The position numbers and the translations under genes were made by a program. Shown here piece after piece: positions 2,616 to 64,000 of a stretch of DNA of 64,000 nucleotides (positions within the stretch are counted from its first letter, which is position 1; the number at the start of each line of letters is the position of its first letter). The notes below the pieces were generated by a model. The model saw nothing but the letters and a program-made list of their open reading frames with translations. It did not search any database and was not told where the DNA came from. Origin of the DNA: Lobosporangium transversale (Eukaryota; Mortierellomycota; Mortierellomycetes; Mortierellales; Mortierellaceae); NCBI RefSeq assembly GCF_002105155.1, contig NW_019028995.1, positions 310,001 through 374,000 on the forward strand. Reading direction: 5' to 3'.

Positions 2616-3067
2616 TCTGCATAGTTTGCATAATTTGATATTCTTACCCTTTTTTTTTTTTTTTTTTAAAAAAAAAGTTACTTCTTTCTTCTTTTTGTTT
2701 ATGTTGTTGCATTGCTATTGTTGTTGCTGTACTATTCATATTTATTACCCTCCTTTACCTAATTACCCTCCTTCATCTCCATCCCTCTACCCATTTACAG
2801 CAATTAACGCTAGCGGCGCTTGATTTCCTCGGCATCCTCTTGTGCGGTAGATAGCTGAAGTACATATTGGAATATTGTAGAAAGTAGAAAAATAAATAAA
2901 AAAATCAATAAAAGCACAGCCCATGGATGAAGGCAAAGTAGAAGTATGGCAACGCCATCGTGGCTTACAAACATGGTCTGCCATATCCGAGAGTGTTAAA
3001 GAGCACTAAAGACAGCCTTTTCTTTTAAAAGCATGTGTACCATTGAATCACTTACGCTTACGCTTTA

Positions 3068-3104
<37 letters not shown>

Positions 3105-3303
3105 CGTCTTACTGAACTATTTCTGAGGGTCTACTACATACCAAAAGTTTAGAAAAGATAGAGCACTGATCAAAGAGAAGCCGACAGCATATGTCACTGT
3201 GGAAGCGAAGGCTCAGCTTCGTAAAAGATAAATTGTAATGAAAGCTTGCTCCAGTGAGGAGTAAACGGCCTGCTAAATTGACTTTTTTTTAATTCTATTT
3301 CAA
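2616..3303. other. Gene-free spacer with homopolymer tracts
   Basis: It holds a T18A9 junction at about 2650-2676 and a run of 32 T at 3073-3104. No coding signal is evident. Confidence 0.6.
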
Positions 3304-3585
3304 AGCATTGAATTAGAAAATGAAGAAGTCAAGGATGGGGAGAAGATTGATGGTAATAGAGGGGACAACCAGCATTTTGCACAGCTTTTTATCCAGCTCT
3401 ATAAGGATGCAGATGACGATGCTAAACACACGGTGATGAAGGGTTTTACGGAGAACAATGGTACATGTTTATCAACGAACTAAAAGGAAGTTGGCGATGA
3501 AACTCGTCCTCCAGAAGGCATGGTTGCAAAAAAGATAGGCTTCATAGAAAGCATCTTTCAATATTTCAGCATATCTATACCATAG
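3304..3585 (+). pseudogene. Decayed SGT1 SGS-domain fragment
   Basis: One frame reads through a clear SGT1-specific (SGS) domain: an acidic linker, then GDNQHFAQLFIQLYKDADDD, then KGFTENNGTCLSTN, and after a stop KEVGDETRPPEGM. In intact SGT1 proteins the matching stretch is a GD..LN.LFQ..Y block, then a GGTVLSTNW block, then a PP[ED][GD]M block. The invariant Trp after STN is replaced by TAA at 3481-3483, and the terminal WKK-type end has become an unrelated tail that stops at 3583-3585. The CS and TPR domains expected upstream are not visible. SGT1 is an HSP90/SKP1 co-chaperone. This is a non-functional remnant of it, presumably a partial duplicate of an intact copy elsewhere. The family call is firm; the origin is inferred. 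Confidence 0.75.
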
Positions 3586-4730
3586 TTTGGTATTGCTAAC
3601 TCATTCACACCTATTCGTTTGTATTTTGTACTTCAACTACCATATTGGTAATAAAGTACATAAAATCTTTGAAGGCTCCCTAGAGTTGATAGAGTGTGTG
3701 TGAATTACAATGTTAAAAGGAAAATGAAGGAAAAGGTTCCTTATCCGACTGTTATGCTTAGTTTCAGCCCCTCCACATGAGTACATGTAGTGGCATGCTT
3801 AGTGCACCTCAAACCTTGATAATTCATTTGTACCTGTCTGTGTGCCTCGCTGCTTTTTTTTTTTTTTTTTTGAGAGCTATTCAACCCGACAAACAAATAA
3901 GCAAGTAAGTAAGCACACAGTGCGATTTGTCCTTTCTTCTAACCATCCAGCGGGTAAATAAGACAGCATATTCATTTGGGCGTTCATTCAAGGCATACCC
4001 TTTTTCTTTGGGATAAAAAAAAGAAAAAAGAAAAAAAGAGCAGGAGTTGGTTGGTTTTTTACATACAAAGTTGGCCTTAGTCTATGAGTAACAATGGACA
4101 AAACAAAGGGACCCTGGTCGGTTGTCTACCCAGATATTTCTCAGAGCACGAGCAAACCGGGAATAGTATAAATGAACCTTCGAACAAAAAAGATCCATGC
4201 GATAAACGAGAACGACAAATGCGATTGATCAAGGCCAGAGAGCAGGAAGAAGTTGAGAAGTTGTGTAACCAAGAGCTGTGGATGAACTCGTTCGGACAGG
4301 TCTGGCCCAAGTTGCTCTTTGCCATTTTTCTTTTTTTTTTTTTTTCCTCTTTTCCTTCTTTACTCTTTCGAGCCCTCTTCCCCTCCCCACGCCCTGTCCT
4401 TCCTTCTACCATCCTATCCTTCCTTCTACCTAGACCTTCCTCCTTCCCTTCCTCCTCTACCGCCCGTCATTTGTTGCTGCTCTTCTGCCTTCCAGCCTGC
4501 AAATTTCCTTGTGACATACTCTCTCCATCGCTCCAGTATATCTTCATCTCTTTCCCGTTAACGATTTCCCCCTGTTTACTTTAACCTTGTCATCATCTCA
4601 TTGTCATATTTCGATTCATTACTTCAGCAAAAAAAGAAAAGAATCGTCTCATCTGCATCACCTCTGTCTTACCACACTTGACGTCTAATTTTATTGAAGC
4701 ATAAAAAAAAAAGAGGACTGACATTCGACT
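3586..4730. other. Spacer and probable promoter of the next gene, with one doubtful ORF
   Basis: It contains a T18 run near 3855 and, from about 4315 to 4560, a long CT-rich stretch typical of a fungal promoter or 5' leader. An ATG frame at 4084 encodes about 75 polar residues (with CDKRERQMRLIKARE) before it runs into the CT tract. It has no recognisable domain and no convincing donor, so I do not call it a gene. Confidence 0.45.
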
Positions 4731-55723: not shown

Positions 55724-57293
55724 CTAGAACTTGAAGACATGGTCATTAGTTAATCCAAGCTCCTTCAAGGCACCATCAACATCACCTTGGGTGAAGTTAG
55801 GGCCTTTAGGTCCACTGACAGACTTCATCATAGCTAATAACAGACATGTCGAAATTAATTAACACGCAAATCCTAGTTTTGCTAACAGTTTAAACAAGGA
55901 AGGATCAAACTTACGTGGTGGTCCACAGACAAACACCTTGGTGTTGCCCTGTCCGATCTCAGGGTTGTACTTCTTGATTAGCTCAGCAGTAACGTATCCA
56001 GTAGGGCCAGTCCATCCCTCTACGGGTTTATCAACGACGTAGGTAACCTTGAAGCGGTCTGGATGGGCCTTAGCAAAGGCATCAATCTCATCCTTGAGAA
56101 TAATGTCTTCTGGAGTGACATTAGCGAAGATAAGGTTAATCTTAGTTTTATCTGCCTTATCTTTGAGGAGTCCACCGATGATCTGAATCATGGGTGTGAT
56201 ACCGGAACCACCAGCGATCAAGGTGACAGTCTCATGCTGGTTAGCTTTGAGAGGATACTTGCTGATAGGACCTAGCGTCGCACGCACAAGTTACGTATAC
56301 ACAAATCTACTCAATATGGCGCCAACATAATAACAAAAAAAAAAGATTCTTAAAAGTAATAATCGATACTGACCCTTGACAGACAGGGTGTCACCGGGTT
56401 TCATGCTATGGATGTGAGATGACATTGGACCTCCTGTTACATGTAGCATTTACGACATGAAGAAATTTTTAGTTTGTGTCATGACAGACAGGTACCAATT
56501 AAGTCAGACTGATATTTTCCGTGAGAAACATTTCTATCAAAAAAACACATACCTTCATAACGCTTGATGACAAAGTCGAATGAACCAGTACGATCAGAAT
56601 CAGAGGTAGGAGTGTAAGGACGAATAATAGGCTTGCCATCTTCTTTGATAAACTTGGTAACAACACAGGATGCTACATCCAAACCCAACTTCTGGTTCTC
56701 CTCCAGCTCAAATGTAAAGCGACTGGTGTTTGGAGTCAACTTTTGCACACTCTTCAACTTGAAGTCAACAAAGGCGTTAGGATCCAAAGCAGAGGAAACA
56801 GGGCCCTTCTTTGTAGCCTCATCTTCTACTGTGGGAGCGGTAGTAGATGCGCCTCCCAACTTGTCACCATAATACATATACGCGGCTACATTGGAAATTA
56901 TGTTAAAAAATCATGATAACAAGTAGAACTAAGATCTTCGCTATTTGTCATCTTGATGAATAGTCATGGTGGGAAGAGAGAGTCATATGGATATAAAAAA
57001 AAGAGAGAAAGAGGAAGGAGACAGACGACCTACCTGCAGCAGCGACACCAAGAGGAAGGCCAACAGTCAGCAACTTGCTGGAACCGCCCGCTGGCTTACT
57101 AGAAGTCGAGTAAGATTGCCTCTACAGGAAAGCATAGCAAAGGATAATTGTTTTAATTGAATCTCTCCAATCATTGTATCTGAATTCCCTTTGAACATTG
57201 GCCATAAGGAAGCTCATATGCAAGCAAATAGAAATATTAACATACTGAAAAGGCACGAATACTAGATTTGAAAGGGCTGATCAATCGGAACAT
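55724..57293 (-). CDS. MCR1: NADH-cytochrome b5 reductase, mitochondrial MCR1 type, 331 aa
   Basis: Exons are 57293-57246, 57121-57034, 56885-56553, 56433-56374, 56271-55915 and 55833-55724 (332 codons). The short first exon gives a basic presequence, MFRLISPFKSSIRAFS. A membrane helix follows, LLTVGLPLGVAAAAYMYYG (about 30-48), as in Mcr1 of the mitochondrial outer membrane and intermembrane space. The FAD-binding motif is IRPYTPTSDSD with GPMSSHIHSMKPGD. The NADH-binding part has AGGSGITPMIQI and VFVCGPPPMMKSVSG, and the end VFKF is typical. The enzyme passes electrons from NADH to cytochrome b5 or related acceptors, feeding sterol and fatty-acid desaturation or reduction of D-erythroascorbyl radical. 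All motifs are intact. Confidence 0.93.
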
Positions 57294-57605
57294 CGTGAAC
57301 GCGAATGCAGAACAGAGTGGAGGAATGAGTCTGAAATAGAAACATTGCAAGGTGCGTGAATTCCAATTAAAAAACCAACTCTCAAATACGCCACATCCAT
57401 TAAATCCCACGCACGCCATGCAAATTTAATATTTCTCTTTTTTCACATATAAAGCATTAATTGCCACTCTTTCGCACTGTACTTTATTTTATTTTTTTAA
57501 TAACAGGGATCTCCAGGGATTAAGAAATACCTATGACTTATTGAGTCATTAAGCGCCTTTCATTATCGAGTATAGACAATATTGTCTGTAGACTTTTTTT
57601 TAATT
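57294..57605. other. Spacer between b5 reductase and the Fanzor-like gene's 3' flank
   Basis: It contains the promoter of the b5 reductase. A perfect 14-base palindrome, AGACAATATTGTCT, lies at 57574-57587, followed by a short T-run next to the 25-base motif. No gene is seen. Confidence 0.5.
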
Positions 57606-57630
57606 ACAAGGACCCTCAGAGTCATGGGAT
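57606..57630 (-). repeat. 25-base conserved 3' motif, copy 1 (near-palindromic core)
   Basis: On the minus strand the core reads ATCCCATGACTCTGAGGGTC followed by CTTGT. It lies about 140 bases downstream of the stop of the Fanzor-like gene and is flanked by a homopolymer tract. The copy at 63602-63626 differs at one base. It is a candidate element end or structured RNA part. Confidence 0.7.
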
Positions 57631-57770
57631 GATGTTATCTGTTGATCTGTACGGTTTTTAAAGTTAGTCCAGAAATTCAAGGGCAAAAGATTAGGTAGAA
57701 AGGATACAGACGAAAATAAACAGAACTTACAAATTTTTTTGTGGGTGTGCCGGCACCCAAATACTTGTGT

Positions 57771-60063
57771 CTAGCGTCGTGCGCGCTTTGCACCCGGAGC
57801 AGACGACTCTTCCGAGGGTTTGCACTTTGCAGGTCTCTCTTGCCTCTCAATTTGAGCAAGACCGATTCTTGCGATGTTTTCCGCCCCTACTGCGTCACGG
57901 TCGAAGAATACCTTACATGCGCGGCAATATTTAGAGCAAGGGTACACAGCCTCTAAAAAGCTATCGCAGAGGGGTCGGGGACAGCGGGCGCTGGTGTAAA
58001 ATTCGTGCGCCCCTACAGTGAAGTGTCCTCGTGCTTTGACCTAAGCGTTTCAAATGGCAGTCGTTTATTAGCAAAGGTTCTATGGCTTTCCAGCTTTTTT
58101 TACTTTTTTAAAAAAGTCATACCTGTGTGACAAGGTGTCTCGTTATAGTAGTGTGCTTGCTGGGAACTCCCTTACTACTTTCAAAGGACCCTAAGCCGAC
58201 GACAAGCACTCCTTTTTCCCCGAGCATCTTCAATACTCGCTGCACCGCATAGTCGAACGTAGCTCGTTGAGCCTTTCGTAAGTCCCATTTTTTTTTTTTA
58301 GGTGCCATCTGGACTCGTAGAACTCTTGAAGCACATCCAAATTCTTTGATCCTGTCTGTGTCTGGGATTCTTCGTTCATCCATTGAAAGTACTCGTTGTA
58401 CGCATCCCTTCCAAACACAGGGGATGGCGCTCTCAACCTCAATCATTCCTTTTTCACGCTTCCTTTTGTTCAACAGGTGATTGAAGCGGAGGACGGGGAG
58501 GTACAAGAACCTGCTTCTTACCTTCACCGTTTGCCGCAAGTTAGGGTTGTGAGGGTCCAGCGAGGAAAACGTAAGGGCGTTAACAATACCAGGATCACAT
58601 CCGACGATAGTTGTGGTGTTTGCGGATGGGCATCGCCCTGGCTTGTTGAATGTGAGCTCAACGTTTTCAAGCAGCTTGGAGCTCCTCTTCCAGTTTATGT
58701 TTGCATAGTCTTCATCTGTCAGGTCTTCACCGGCTGCCTTTGAACACGTCGTGTTGAGAAATCCCTGAGAAAACTCCAGTTCTTGGCTGGGGTCTTCTTC
58801 ATCTACGTCAGACTGCTGCTGTCTCTTCGTCTGGGTTGTGTCATAGGCAAGTAGATTCAGAACTAGACCGTTGGTAGAAATCGTTTCTTTGAGTTTGAAC
58901 CGAGTTATATCTTTGTCTTGTGACTGTAGGAATACTTTGTCTCGATATCCATGAACCATGCGATCACCTCCAATGTCACAAAAGAGAGCCTGTATCAAAA
59001 CCCCTTTTGTTCCCTGTACACACTCATACATTGCAGTCTTGGAAGCATTATTGAGAGGCAGAATGCGCTCCAGCAGCTGCTTGGTATCTTCGTTCGCCCA
59101 GAGGACGTCAACTAGGGCGTGTTCAGACAGATACACATACCTGGGTGACCAGGGGGGCGTAGGAAAGTCTGAGTATTTTTTCACTTTTTTGTTCTCCCGC
59201 AAAAAAAACTCAATGTCGCTCATATCTTCGTTTGTTTTCTGGACATCAAACTAGAAAAAAATAAAAGAGTCTGAATATAGAGCATTTGATTGCAGAATAT
59301 GCATGAAAATAACCTACACAAGGTTATACCATTGCGTTCCTGTAGTGCTGCCTTAATGATGTCTGTACTTGGCCCATTAGTAGCTCTGACGCTCTTGGAA
59401 ATGAGATCTTTTTGGGATCAAGCCTTGCACGTCCCCCAATGTGATGTCTATTTCCTTTATTGGGGAAAGTTCAGTGGTGGCCTTGAAATGTTCATAAGCG
59501 AGGATATAGTGGGCGTTTCTACCGCCCTTCCTTGTTTTTCTGCCCTCGCGTAAGCTGAATAGGGGGCCACCTTGGCCACTTAAAAGAAGGGTGGCGAGAC
59601 AGAAGGAATAGTTAGTGCTATCCAAGACCTCGTCCAGTGCCTTTTTCCTCGACCTTGCTACCCCTGGTAGCCGCATGATCCTCTCAATGTCCAAGGCAAT
59701 CGCCGAGTATGCATAGCGGCGTAGTCGGCTGCGGACAGCAACTGCCCCTCGGATCTGGCTTGCAATATTATCCCTTTCATCTGCGTCCAGTCTGCCTTTC
59801 CTTGCCATGGAAGCCTTGAGGGGTCCAATTGTTAAGGCCTTGATAGGATGCTTACTACTGTAGCTGTGATCAACCTTCGTAGCATCCTTCAAGTTCCTAA
59901 TTGGTGCACCTTCTTTTTTTACCCCTGTGGAGCTTCTTGCCTTTGTGCTTCCGCTTTTGTTTTTTCTGTTGCTCTTTTTTGCCTTTTTCCGACGTGGTGG
60001 ATGCCTAAGGCCCGGCCTATCGTGCTGACGGCAGTTACTGATATCAACTGTGCGCTCATTCAA
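57771..60063 (-). CDS. Fanzor/TnpB-like RuvC nuclease (possibly the C-terminal half of a larger fusion)
   Basis: Minus-strand exons are (from) 60063-59523, 59454-59330, 59250-58123 and 58040-57771. Splicing at 59522/59455 joins RKTRKG to GNRHHIGGRARLDPKK and avoids stops in the unspliced frame. The RuvC-I motif is IVGCDPGIVNALTFS (catalytic Asp at 58596-58594). A VVGLGSFESSKG block sits where RuvC-II is expected. The last exon has the TnpB-type zinc finger EFYTSARCPRPLC..YPCSKYCRAC, and RuvC-III is FFDRDAVGAENIARI. Fanzors are eukaryotic relatives of TnpB, and some have been shown to be RNA-guided DNA endonucleases. No canonical Glu is obvious at RuvC-II, which fits the displaced Glu described for Fanzors. 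The tail is basic (KRARR). The first exon's start is uncertain, because a TGA directly precedes the ATG and acceptors at 60016 and 60004 could join it to the upstream PIN nuclease exon. Confidence 0.85.
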
Positions 60064-60220
60064 TATGCTCGGCTTGTCAGAAAAGATGGGCCGGTACTGG
60101 TTTCTATGTGACCCTTTCGCTATATAGAATGATGGTGCGTCTCTACACTATCCAAGAAAGGGACTAACGATTAGTATTGGGGACGTTTGGTTTCAGACCA
60201 AAACTATAGCTTGAGCTTTC

Positions 60221-61186
60221 TTACGTTCTGCGGCGCTGCGTTCGCCTTTGCTGAGCCATTCTATGACGAAGTTCCTTTCCTTTGAGTAGACACTGCTTGA
60301 AGTTATCGAACTCATTGTTCGATGGTAACGCTCGGGCCGACGTTTGATGGCCGGAAGTAAAAACACGGAGAGCTACTCTGAAACGGCCTTCTTCAGAGGC
60401 TGCGTTCCTTCCCAACATCTTACTAGCTTCCCTTAGGTAATCTCGAAGCATCTTATTGTAGTTTCTGCTCCACGCAACCTTTTGAATTAATTGAGGATTA
60501 TTAATCGGGCCCAACGTCTCGAGGTTCCTTGAGTAATCATTGCCTGCGATGGCACAGAATAACACCAGATATTCGTGTGATGGCAGGCTTAGTGCTTGGA
60601 TAACGTTATCTACATCGTAAACCCCAAACTTCTGTCTACGGTGTGGAGGGGGTCGCACTAGGATGCAGACTCGTTCGTACGCAAAAAAATCAGAGTCTTG
60701 GGATATCACGATCCTATCATTCTCCTCATTATGGCACCCTATGCATGGGTCCGCTTCATATGTACACAGACAGACATCGAAGACAGAGCCAAGGCCTATT
60801 GCCAGCTGATCCTTGAGGGTGTGGACTTCTCGAAGACCCTTCTGGATGCGCCTTATGACTTGAGGACGAGTCCATACCCCACTCTGAGAATTTCTCCCGA
60901 AGGCGTTCATATCGTTCTCCAAAGCATCCATATTTTTTTGTCTTATGGCTTGCCGTTCTGTTCTTGCTTTTTCTTTCTCATTACAAGGCCTCCCATCAAT
61001 ATGTATAGTCAGATTGTCCGTTTTAAAAAGATCCTTTATCTCGAGCGTCAGGGACCTTCCTACATCAATGATGGATTTGCTTTTCATCTTTGCATGGACG
61101 TCTCTACGGTGGATGTTGTAATAGAACGTACCGAGGAGATCTACATGAACAGAATGGTCAGGATTTGCCGCCAAGAAAGTGCCCAC
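60221..61186 (-). CDS. FEN1/XPG-type PIN-domain nuclease, upstream of and probably spliced to the Fanzor-like part
   Basis: The frame carries the full set of flap-nuclease acidic motifs: VHVDLLGTFYYN (D16, counting from the GTG at 61186), IHIDGRPCNEKEKARTE (D64), TYEADPCIG (E144, D146), IVISQDSDFFAY (D164, D166) and AIAGNDYSRNL (D217). These residues bind the two metal ions in FEN1, XPG, Asteroid and related nucleases. The reading frame ends at RRRT-stop, but the stop is formed by AAC|GTAAGA, a consensus donor at 60225/60224. Splicing to an acceptor before 60016 or 60004 continues in phase into the Fanzor-like frame. No ATG suits the start. The frame is open upstream to an acceptor near 61261, and an ATG at 61248 in another frame reads MGLKFFFKLVADRG, like an XPG N-terminus. 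A frameshift or a missing exon is possible. Confidence 0.75.
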   Translation of the reverse strand: MGTFLAANPDHSVHVDLLGTFYYNIHRRDVHAKMKSKSIIDVGRSLTLEIKDLFKTDNLTIHIDGRPCNEKEKARTERQAIRQKNMDALENDMNAFGRNSQSGVWTRPQVIRRIQKGLREVHTLKDQLAIGLGSVFDVCLCTYEADPCIGCHNEENDRIVISQDSDFFAYERVCILVRPPPHRRQKFGVYDVDNVIQALSLPSHEYLVLFCAIAGNDYSRNLETLGPINNPQLIQKVAWSRNYNKMLRDYLREASKMLGRNAASEEGRFRVALRVFTSGHQTSARALPSNNEFDNFKQCLLKGKELRHRMAQQRRTQRRRT

Positions 61187-61248
61187 GTCAGTTTCCGAAG
61201 GTAAACCCCGCGATCCGCAACCAGTTTGAAGAAGAACTTCAGCCCCAT

Positions 61249-63565
61249 GATCAATATCTAAGCGAAGGAGAAAGAAAAAAGGAAAGATGGTGGTGATGAA
61301 AAGAAATGAAAAAGAAAAAAAAAGAGCGACAAAGGTATAAATGGATGAGCTTTTTTATGGTTTAAAGATCCAAAGTGAATAGATAAAGAATATTGAGGAA
61401 AAGATACAGGAACAAGTAGCAGTGGTAAAAGGGATGGGACTTTGGAGCGAGCGAGTGGGAAAGGAGGAAGACAATGATCCCTTTTTATATCCTGGATTGA
61501 TGATGAGTTTTATCATTGTCTCATATAGTTTTGATATCGATCCTTTGCTTCACAGGCCACATCAATTTTTATTCAGTTCCTTTGTTTGGATTGGGGTTTT
61601 GTCCAAGTCAATAGTAGAGATCGACAAATAAATACAAGCTCTCGCATGAATGGCAGATCGGAAACAATAGCACTGAGATACCAAAGTGAGCATTCAAAAA
61701 AATTATCTCCATATACAGCATACAGTGTTGATGTCGATCCTTTGTTATACAATTTTTTTTCAGTTTCTTTTTGCATTGGCCCTTGCTTTGTGAGGAATTT
61801 AATGAATAAAAAAAAAAATTATAGTATTAAACAAGGGTAGTAAATACGTTGACAGATTTGACTCGGTGTGTAGGAACTGGTTTTGAAACAGGTGATTACA
61901 TCCTTGTCAAAGGTAACAACAAGAGAAAAAAAAGTCTTTTTTATCAAAGAATGGGTTCAGATGTCGCTCTTTGCTCCAACAGCCCCAGTACTATTGTGTT
62001 AAAGCAGAGATATTCGTTGGCTCTCAGGTTTCGGCATCAATGGCGGAGATAGGAGTGATGTAGTTGCATGCGCTTATTGCTTGGAGTAAAAGCTATCTAA
62101 GCACCCTTTCTTACTGGACGATGCCTTGTTAATGGTGATATTGCGCAGCGCCTTGTGGATGGAGGGAGAGCAGAAGCGAGAGTGGTGGTTTTTGGCGGTC
62201 GTTTGGTGTGTGTATGTGCGAATTTGATGGTTGATACCAATCGCCAAATTATATGAATATAGAATTACAGAAGCGAGATTAATACCGACGCGTTTGAGTT
62301 TCTTTCCTTGAGATTGTTATAACCATGGGATGATTGCGGAGTGGCCACCAAAATAGTTTGTTTATTTCTTCTGGAGGCTCCATTGGAAAGCGCTTGTGTT
62401 TTGAAGTTGCCTAGAAAACAAAAAAAAAACGCCGCGATGCAAAATGTGTTTCTATGCGTGCAAAAACCAAAGAGATGCTTTAGCTGTTTATTCAATAGCC
62501 TGGTGCATGTTCATGTACACACGACTGATAGTGATTGATTAACAAAAGGAAACTCTCGTCTCATCCCATGCATGTACCGCCAAATATTTTCGAAACAATA
62601 AAAGGCATGTACAGACAACAAAGAAGCACGTCAACTGTTTGATTGCTTGATCAGTATCCTCCAGTTTACTCACGTATAATATTTTTTTCTATTCACTCTT
62701 GGCGTGCTTGTACGTCTATTAAGTTTTCTGTCTGGTCGTATAACACTAGGAACCCCCCACGCCAGAAAAAAAATACTTCCCATGGTTGGTGCCAGGTCTG
62801 AAAACAATAATAATAATGCACATGCCGTGCATGGAAGATAGGGCCTTGACACTATGACCATTGTTATGCAGACTCACCGAAATCAACTTGTGATCACAAC
62901 TGCTACTCATGCTCTGTTGCCAAGGGCTTGAAAAGGGACACAAACCTCTTCTTCCTTGTTCTCATAATCCCTCACATCCTTTCAATACTTTCGCCGTAAA
63001 TGTCCATTACATTTGAATCACACATAGGCACTTCACCATTACATATATCACCTTGGGTATGATACGTTGGTGTGGTTCCCTCCAGTTTCAACAGGCCCAA
63101 CAAACTCTATTAGCAGTGCTTACCAACCCAGATATATCAAAGGAACGCAAGAAGACGAGGAAGCAAACGATGTGAAAAATCAGGTCTCGCCGAGTTGTAC
63201 AGGAAAAGATCAAGTTAGTCAAGCTTCATGGTGCGGTAGAATGAATCAACTCAGATTGCACTGCTTTCAAGTCGAGACTACGGCGGCGAATATTACCATT
63301 GCTATATTACACCAGTCAATAAATAAACGATACAATGGGCTCCCAAGCGGATGCTAGAGTCATGCGAAAGTTTTCATGAGTTTTTTTATTTGCACAAATA
63401 AAGAAGCCAGGATAGTTCCTGGATTTTAAGCCCATTTATAATGGTAAATTTGCCCTTGTTATGGATGAAGGGATAATACTAACGTAGATGGTGGGGATTT
63501 ATGTCTGTTTCGTCCAGCGTTCAGCCGTTCTTTCAGGATCGTCCCGCGCAGCTATCGCTCGACTT

Positions 63566-63598
<33 letters not shown>

Positions 63599-63601
63599 AT
63601 A
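61249..63601. other. Spacer of 2.35 kb between the nuclease gene and the right-edge gene
   Basis: The first 300 bases (purine-rich on the + strand, CT-rich on the minus strand) look like the promoter and leader of the PIN/Fanzor gene. A diverged duplication lies at 61.53 and 61.73 kb. A T29 run at about 63569-63597 abuts the second 25-base motif. ORFs such as 63067-63357 show no domain. Confidence 0.5.
61528..61782. repeat. Diverged direct duplication of about 60-70 bases
   Basis: The units at about 61528-61594 and 61727-61782 share TTGAT.TCGATCCTTTG, then TTTTATTCAGTT.CTTT-type sequence and ATTGG, with small gaps between these blocks. Confidence 0.55.
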
Positions 63602-63626
63602 ACAAGGACCCTCAGGGTCATGGGAT
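63602..63626 (-). repeat. 25-base conserved 3' motif, copy 2 (perfect 13-base palindromic core)
   Basis: 24 of 25 bases match copy 1. Here the core GACCCTGAGGGTC (63607-63619) is a perfect palindrome around its central base. It lies about 170 bases downstream of the stop of the truncated minus-strand frame at the right edge and is likewise followed by ATCAAAAAA on that strand. Confidence 0.7.
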
Positions 63627-63795
63627 TTATTTTCTACACTCTATGAACAAAATGCTCCAGAAACTATAGTCAATAAACAGCTATTACTGCACAAACGACA
63701 AGAGCCGCTGTATCCATGATTTCATAAACCCTGACCGCCGTGGTTGGTACTCAAAGTCCACCTTTCCGACGTGGCCTGTTGCGCAACGCGACAAA

Positions 63796-64000
63796 TTATC
63801 CGCTATCCATAGTCATCAAAAACTTCATTCCACCTAGCCGCTCCATCACGTCCAGTTTGGTTTTCCCAAGGTAACTGTCCCGGACTCGGTCATCCGCGAT
63901 CTTGTAGATCTCTTTTACATTCAGCTTCTGTCTTTGTCTGAGGGAAGGGACAAGGAAATCATTGCTACTACGTCTGTGCTCCCCAACACAGTTGCGTCCT
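63796..64000 (-). CDS. C-terminal part of an unidentified gene running off the right edge
   Basis: A 67-residue open frame enters from the window edge without an ATG and ends at TAA. It includes GEHRRSSNDFLVPSLRQRQK, then NVKEIYKIADDRVRDSYLGK and MERLGGMKFLMTMDSG. The composition is protein-like, basic and low in complexity bias, so it is probably a real gene end. The 3' flank carries the same 25-base motif as the Fanzor-like gene, which suggests it belongs to a related element or the same family of units. The conserved zinc finger and DRD of a Fanzor are not in this stretch. I cannot name the family. Confidence 0.5.
   Translation of the reverse strand, partial: GRNCVGEHRRSSNDFLVPSLRQRQKLNVKEIYKIADDRVRDSYLGKTKLDVMERLGGMKFLMTMDSG

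Follow-up and report, generated by a model that had tools for sequence, protein, structure and literature searches.

The analyzed stretch of DNA, called the window below, comprises 64,000 nucleotides (nt) of Lobosporangium transversale (contig NW_019028995.1, positions 310,001 to 374,000), and positions are counted from its first letter. It contains a decayed copy of a multi-copy mobile element whose one recognised gene lies on the minus strand and has four exons (Table 1). Judging from its reading frames and those of its relatives, this gene almost certainly corresponds to one spliced protein that joins an N-terminal XPG/FEN1-type PIN nuclease to a Fanzor-type RuvC nuclease; we call this architecture PIN-Fanzor. 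After removal of three introns, the predicted product has ~1,080 to 1,260 residues (1,502 in one gene model), and the PIN nuclease is followed by a linker and then by the RuvC nuclease with its zinc finger. The element occurs in several diverged families, and the window copy belongs to family 1. In copy alignments its 5' end, TATCCCTT, lies at ~63475 (+/-3) and its 3' end, ...AACAGATA, at ~57636.

The window copy itself is, by its reading frames, a pseudogene. Its ATG at 61248 is out of frame with the remainder of exon 1, exon 2 comes to an early end in another frame, and one stretch of exon 3 reads unlike its relatives (partly out of frame, with the length unchanged). An earlier sequence-only reading of the window had proposed PIN and Fanzor parts in one spliced protein. 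Support for this comes from further copies in the genome, from the introns of family 2 and from single-protein models in other Mortierellaceae. It was also right about the flap-nuclease acidic set in the minus-strand frame 61186-60225, where HVDLLGT, IHIDG, EAD, DSD and NDY are all present, about the TAA at 60223-60221 that falls within the donor GTAAGA, and about DPG, EFYTSARC..C, CSKYCRAC and DRDAVGAENI in the downstream frames. Its total of 989 joined codons fails because the acceptor probably differs, translation does not begin with the GTG at 61186 and the window copy is a pseudogene with a broken frame; the C66 copy begins at an ATG equivalent to window position 61248 (MGLKSFF...).

Table 1. 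Parts of the family-1 element copy and its gene in the window.
Feature	Position	Strand	Remarks
Family-1 mobile element copy	57636..63475	-	~5.84 kb; homology among copies stops at these positions, flanks differ
5' region without a recognised gene	61249..63475	-	2.2 kb
Exon 1, XPG/FEN1-type PIN nuclease domain	60225..61248	-	ATG 61248; frame broken between 61248 and 61186
Intron 1	60143..60224	-	82 nt, phase 2; GTAAGA...TGTAG, branch TACTAAT from 60176
Exon 2, linker FYIAKGSHRNQYRPIF and N-terminal Fanzor half	59330..60142	-	frame broken near 3' end
Intron 2	59251..59329	-	79 nt, phase 0; same position in family 2
Exon 3, RuvC-I with VGCDPG	58123..59250	-	catalytic Asp codon 58596-58594; strongest coding constraint among copies
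Intron 3	58041..58122	-	82 nt, phase 0; same position in family 2
Exon 4, relocated Glu (EFYTSARC), C4 zinc finger, DRD	57771..58040	-	Glu codon 58004-58002; stop 57773-57771
3' noncoding right end	57636..57770	-	first place for a guide RNA by analogy with TnpB

The arrangement recurs throughout the genome (42.7 Mb searched, 127 contigs). With fragments included, there are 120 matches to the PIN exon, at least 139 to the RuvC exon (111 of 312 candidates scored) and 69 loci with the PF07282 zinc finger. For 33 of the 38 top-ranked among the 139 RuvC-exon matches, a PIN exon lies at most 3.5 kb upstream in the same orientation. Intron positions and phases (2, 0, 0) are identical in family 2 (L049 and relatives), the PIN exon of which is 30-32% identical to that of family 1. 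Family-2 copies are 95-99% identical to each other over long stretches, and in 14 copies the PIN exon is open over its full 341 residues; the L049 copy has a stop in exon 3. In the diverged families 3 and 5 and in the remnant family 4, PIN was seen by eye upstream of TnpB.

Protein searches, in which the 8000 candidates sharing most words were scored, yielded nine distinct proteins (P0002-P0010), all of them automatic gene models. Both halves are present in P0004 from Podila verticillata (1,260 aa), in P0005 from Mortierella sp. GBA43, and in P0007 and P0008 from Mortierella alpina, the latter with 181 extra residues ahead of the MGI start. The C-terminal zinc-finger part is absent from P0005, from P0003 and P0009 of a Benniella metagenome-assembled genome (the PIN part of P0009 is gapped) and from the partial P0006 of M. 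antarctica, which also has no N-terminal start; the partial P0010 of Podila horticola contains pieces of both halves. P0002, from L. transversale, retains no more than the final 19 residues encoded by the PIN exon and matches the window exon by exon; its pieces at C1:66-2896 show 93-100% identity except for one short piece (82%). In these other Mortierellaceae, P0003 to P0009 each carry both halves in one protein (some of them partial). A protein search for PIN-less relatives with the Fanzor half alone gave only three matches (P0004, P0006 and P0010), all PIN-bearing, and outside fungi no relative was confirmed in viral and genome contig sets searched with two short peptide patterns each, a weak search.

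Separate PIN and Fanzor trees of nine sequences support the same four pairs: the two M. alpina proteins, one Benniella protein with Lobosporangium family 2, Podila with M. antarctica, and GBA43 with Lobosporangium family 1. Therefore, the halves have probably travelled together for long. The deeper branches of the two trees differ or are weak. Pairs with similar PIN halves tend to have similar Fanzor halves as well (r 0.87 between the pairwise identities), an effect due in part to one close pair. To judge from the diverged families in one genome and the relatives in Podila, Mortierella and Benniella (all Mortierellaceae), the fusion is old. By the same comparisons, PIN-Fanzor is a real, conserved and new domain architecture within Fanzor-type systems; no description of an XPG/PIN-Fanzor fusion was found in the open-licence papers searched.

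Intron 1 is the deciding feature for the one-protein question. Among 28 surveyed family-1 sequences, the donor was matched by script in 23, and of the other five, C56 also shows a donor. In all 23 donor-matched sequences the intron (82, 83 or 84 nt) has a TACTAAT branch and a TGTAG-type acceptor, and its removal restores the frame; the 39-codon join is free of stops in 21, the stops being found in C42:438386 and C69. In the window the join reads ...RRRT-DAPSFYIAKGSHRNQYRPIF, with exon 2 starting from 60142. The join yields PSFYIAxGSHRNQFRPIF, close forms of which are found at the junction of P0004 to P0009, that of P0003 being more diverged. Instead of the acceptors at 60016 and 60004 put forward earlier, the likely one is TGTAG at 60143/60142, which is backed by these linker forms in homologous proteins. 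As a candidate acceptor of intron 1, TCACATAG was dropped for TGTAG given the linkers of P0004 and P0005.

Two accounts without a fusion protein have to be weighed here. The frames could belong to two proteins, from one transcript or adjacent genes, with PIN ending at the TAA of the donor and the Fanzor half initiating alone. The PIN frame indeed has its own stop (60223-60221), so that intron retention would yield a PIN-only product, and the Lobosporangium model P0002 begins no more than 19 residues before the end of the PIN exon. However, P0002 joins this exon-1 tail to exon 2 at the predicted site, P0003 to P0009 are single models with both halves, and the frame is preserved across an intron of variable length. 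Moreover, in seven of the eight proteins the Fanzor half offers no nearby codon for initiation, the first Met lying 55 to 149 residues past the linker start; P0003 has a Met within the linker. All this makes two separate proteins highly unlikely. As for an artefact of annotation or assembly, in which unrelated adjoining frames are joined by chance, the breaks in the joined frame of the decayed window copy would fit it, but many further copies, diverged families and other genera show the arrangement too. The joined frames are not due to chance because the same genome has the 120 PIN-exon and 139 RuvC-exon matches, and this account, refuted by the copies, can practically be dismissed.

The PIN half was compared with known structures by a profile of eight sequences, which matched FEN1 (1a76, E 2.5e-6), RAD2 (1.1e-5), another FEN1 chain (5.2e-4) and EXO1 (0.0026) in PDB. 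As the mark of an active site we used the acidic set that we take to be that of FEN1, with residue labels assigned here. The five acidic sites of the window PIN are also found, with conservative variants, in L049, P0003, P0004, P0007 (ESD) and P0008. Deviations are seen in P0005 (NSD and NDH), in the C66 copy (DSN) and in P0009, in which parts of the core are absent. Between genera the acidic residues are conserved at 28-40% identity of the PIN halves in most pairs, and support for PIN rests on this conservation, constraint within family 1 being slight. With FEN1, RAD2 (XPG) and EXO1 the PIN half thus shares the acidic set, the profile match and, in most members, an MG[ILVT] start. It differs from them in consisting of the nuclease domain only, in scoring below the XPG_I cut-off and in being joined, within a mobile element, to a nuclease of the Fanzor type.

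The Fanzor half can be recognized by two published signatures. DPG at RuvC-I and a Glu six residues before the zinc finger are molecular fingerprints of Fanzors (PMC10711439). Both are present in the window (VGCDPG and EFYTSARC), likewise in P0004, P0007 and P0008, and in family 2 (IDPG and HEYYTSAKC); family 3 has DLG in place of DPG. The Fanzor/TnpB motif D-X(125,275)-[TS]-[TS]-X-X-[C4 zinc finger]-X(5,50)-RD (PMC3627910) is found as well: the Asp of VGCDPG is residue 219 of the 376 of exon 3 and is followed after ~172 residues by TSAR-C...C...C..C-KVFFD-RD in exon 4. Three proteins exceed the PF07282 cut-off of 26.3 (P0004 33.2, P0007 29.2, P0008 33.4), and the window exon 4 alone, with 25.7 bits, stays just under it and was counted as reaching it with its neighbours in frame. 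P0002 (13.8) is below, and P0003, P0005, P0006, P0009 and P0010, several of which do not contain that region, gave no PF07282 match. The NCBIfam model guided_TnpB matches the C-terminal part only (E 9e-6 to 8e-5, far below its cut-off).

Other Fanzors are RNA-guided (PMC10432273, PMC11423790), and by analogy the Fanzor half is likely to be an RNA-guided DNA cutter too. At the right end of family 1, the last 60 nt of the copies are 99% identical to C66, versus 96-98% for the exons and 97% for the whole 3' noncoding part. The family-2 right end gives a weak signal of an unusual RNA fold (z -2.30, 6/200 shuffles; two internal controls gave -1.08 and +0.78). A scan of window positions 57400-63800 against Rfam returned no match at E<=0.1.

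Coding constraint was estimated from the ratio of nonsynonymous to synonymous polymorphism (pN/pS) among family-1 copies. For the RuvC exon it is 0.29, versus 0.90 and 0.81 in shifted frames, and with in-frame stretches only it is 0.30 (15 copies), compared with 0.52 for PIN (13 copies). Comparison with the shifted frames therefore indicates clear coding constraint for RuvC, slight constraint for PIN and none seen for exon 2.

The ends of the family-1 element recur in the genome, with at least 40 matches to the 5' end (40 of 58 candidates scored) and at least 40 to the 3' end (40 of 65 scored). Comparison of copy ends revealed no terminal inverted repeat (TIR), and neither a target-site duplication (TSD) nor a shared target motif was seen by eye in the 5' and 3' flanks of aligned copies. 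The two ends have three inverted and three direct 7-mers in common, versus 1.4 expected from shuffles; all are of low complexity except the direct AAACCGT, and they are not counted as repeat structure. The 5' end starts with T, and a CCATT-ATA-AATGG hairpin lies nearby. There are at least two types of family-1 5' ends, TATCCCTTAAACCG and TATCCCTTCGTCCG; the window has TATCCCTTCATCC and the C39:398 kb copy TATCCCTTTCATCC. In the 5' 2.2 kb of the C66 copy, stop-to-stop frames reach at most 100 aa, and 15 of them measure 60-100 aa; a Pfam scan of 10 of these 15 gave no match over the cut-off, although a spliced gene may lie there, and within the same frames no transposase was recognised in the family-1 element. 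One copy, C64, is internally deleted and keeps both ends.

Family 2 has imperfect inverted ends, in which 14 of 16 bases match. In the left part of L049 1979-8083, which belongs to this family, pieces 2553-2651, 2866-2894 and 2961-3589 are inverted and correspond to the 3' region of the same element (93% over 43 bp) and to a family-1-like RuvC exon (85% over 553 bp). To judge by these matches, the left part resembles the 3' half of some related element in inverted and degenerate form, which would explain the short inverted ends TATAGCCCGTTCCATT / TATAGTCCGTCCCATT.

FEN1-type domains cut 5' flaps, and Cas12-type enzymes cut both strands with a single RuvC site and leave a displaced strand. In the proposed mechanism, the RuvC half would make an RNA-guided DNA cut as in other Fanzors, and the PIN half would trim 5' flaps or displaced strands at this cut or at repair intermediates. 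Such trimming might bias break repair so that the cut site again receives a copy of the element, resulting in its retention or homing. Movement to new sites would be provided by a transposase or recombinase in trans, or by the repair pathway itself; since many copies are without parts of the element and no transposase was recognised, a factor in trans is likely. We estimate at roughly 0.6 the probability of this explanation as a whole, that is, a decayed mobile-element copy with an old PIN-Fanzor fusion, an RNA-guided RuvC nuclease and PIN flap trimming that steers repair. The flap-trimming role of the PIN half, taken by itself, is a tentative assignment by analogy.

Other accounts of the same element divide the work differently. 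PIN-Fanzor could be a passenger, irrelevant to mobility and serving selfish retention or the fight against rival elements, with a DDE transposase moving the elements in trans. The deleted C64 with both ends and a many-copy family-2-type derivative without detected PIN (see below) agree with a passenger, as do the family-2 inverted ends, somewhat like those of the TA-flanked Fanzor element SPu-1 (PMC3627910). Yet the constraint on the RuvC exon and the persistence of the fusion across genera would be difficult to account for if PIN-Fanzor did nothing for the element, and we consider this account unlikely. Somewhat more doubtful is an assignment of PIN as the structure-specific resolvase or end-processing nuclease in transposition of an unrecognised, Helitron2- or Crypton-like element of the single-stranded DNA or recombinase type; the Fanzor half would then serve only for retention. 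Helitron2 elements are characterized by a RepHel protein, a 5' hairpin, asymmetric inverted repeats and a 3' hairpin, and Fanzor1 genes occur in Helitron2 elements, which are described with a 5' T as well (PMC3627910). In favour of this account, family 1 begins with T, has a hairpin near its 5' end and shows no TIR and no evident TSD; however, no RepHel or tyrosine recombinase was recognised in the 10 of 15 5' frames scanned, the 3' end of family 1 shows no marked fold, its inverted repeats do not exceed those of shuffles, and family 2 has short inverted ends. Finally, PIN-Fanzor might be a self-sufficient machine of two nucleases: an RNA-guided RuvC cut at the empty or target site, together with PIN flap trimming, would cause repair to copy the element into the break, and homing would suffice for its spread with no transposase involved. 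This would account for the failure to see a TIR, TSD or transposase in family 1, but we regard it as improbable.

Several observations, given in this and the next paragraph, weigh against the explanation that we prefer, an old fusion with an RNA-guided cut and PIN trimming. All XPG_I scores stay below the Pfam cut-off of 24.9 (window 15.2 bits, P0004 13.0), as does XPG_I_2 in P0008 (17.5 versus 24.2), and we label the PIN half an XPG/FEN1-type domain and a distant relative because of the XPG_I result. No Fanzor or TnpB chain in PDB was matched by a profile of the whole Fanzor half. Guide-RNA folding at the family-1 right end shows nothing unusual (z +0.65 and +0.58). The pN/pS ratio of the PIN exon is 0.62 versus 0.81 and 0.74 in shifted frames, a weak difference, and that of exon 2 is 0.59 versus 0.68 and 0.58, so that no constraint is seen. 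None of 10 sequences with all four exons has every exon length intact, and therefore family 1 looks old.

Only 38 of the 69 zinc-finger loci have a match to the family-1 PIN query within 7.5 kb upstream. Beyond these 38, PIN pieces are found at C55:225708 and C69:237577. Of the other 31 loci, 16 match the family-2-type P0002, and 14 of these are without a listed PIN match; four more are family-3-like remnants, one with PIN traces. The sixteen family-2-like loci comprise C2:422306 and C79:188457, where only a 41-residue PIN tail is left, and C24:585399, C33:636183, C36:8433, C42:321163, C53:389013 and 484668, C59:3065, C85:108972, C87:229190, C94:53403, C102:114212, C117:744223, and C51:1513239 and 1526053. 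They probably represent a multiplied deletion derivative. The existence of such a many-copy derivative without detected PIN suggests that PIN is dispensable in cis for copying.

With known Fanzors, the eukaryotic TnpB relatives of transposons, and with Fanzor1 in particular, PIN-Fanzor has in common the DPG, the Glu six residues before the C4 zinc finger and the final RD (PMC10711439, PMC3627910). A further shared trait is that the gene has several exons and resides in a fungal element present in multiple copies, in which no transposase was recognised (PMC3627910). What it adds is an XPG/FEN1-type PIN nuclease of ~340 residues at the N-terminus. The unclassified Fanzor elements MCi-2 and MCi-5 of Mucor circinelloides are likewise multi-copy, fungal and without recognisable TIRs, but they differ in TSDs (11-12-bp in MCi-2, putative 6-bp in MCi-5) and, in some cases, in Crypton or Harbinger transposase sequence; the excerpt describing them does not mention PIN (PMC3627910). 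SPu-1 from Spizellomyces punctatus (Fanzor1) likewise carries just one Fanzor gene, and its inverted ends and putative TA target may have counterparts in family 2. It differs in a 633-residue Fanzor in one open reading frame and in 33-bp TIRs, again with no mention of PIN in the excerpted text (PMC3627910).

As to how a Fanzor aids its element, the PIN fusion points to processing of the cut end or of the displaced strand. An old natural fusion makes this end-processing step testable via two catalytic mutants of one protein. In addition, PIN-Fanzor would offer a precedent from nature for linking RNA-guided nucleases with end-processing enzymes.

The surroundings of the copies include host sequences and other elements. 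Adjoining the element in the window, minus-strand frames at 55859-56877 presumably represent a host gene of the cytochrome-b5-reductase type, a name given by eye. On the other side, the open frame at 63796-63999 (minus strand) recurs in a 373-codon frame (L108) beside the 5' fragment of another copy (C53), and is therefore probably part of another host repeat. At C37:47443 (L075), a family-1 copy abuts the 3' end of a family-2 copy, and its left flank resembles the family-2 right end.

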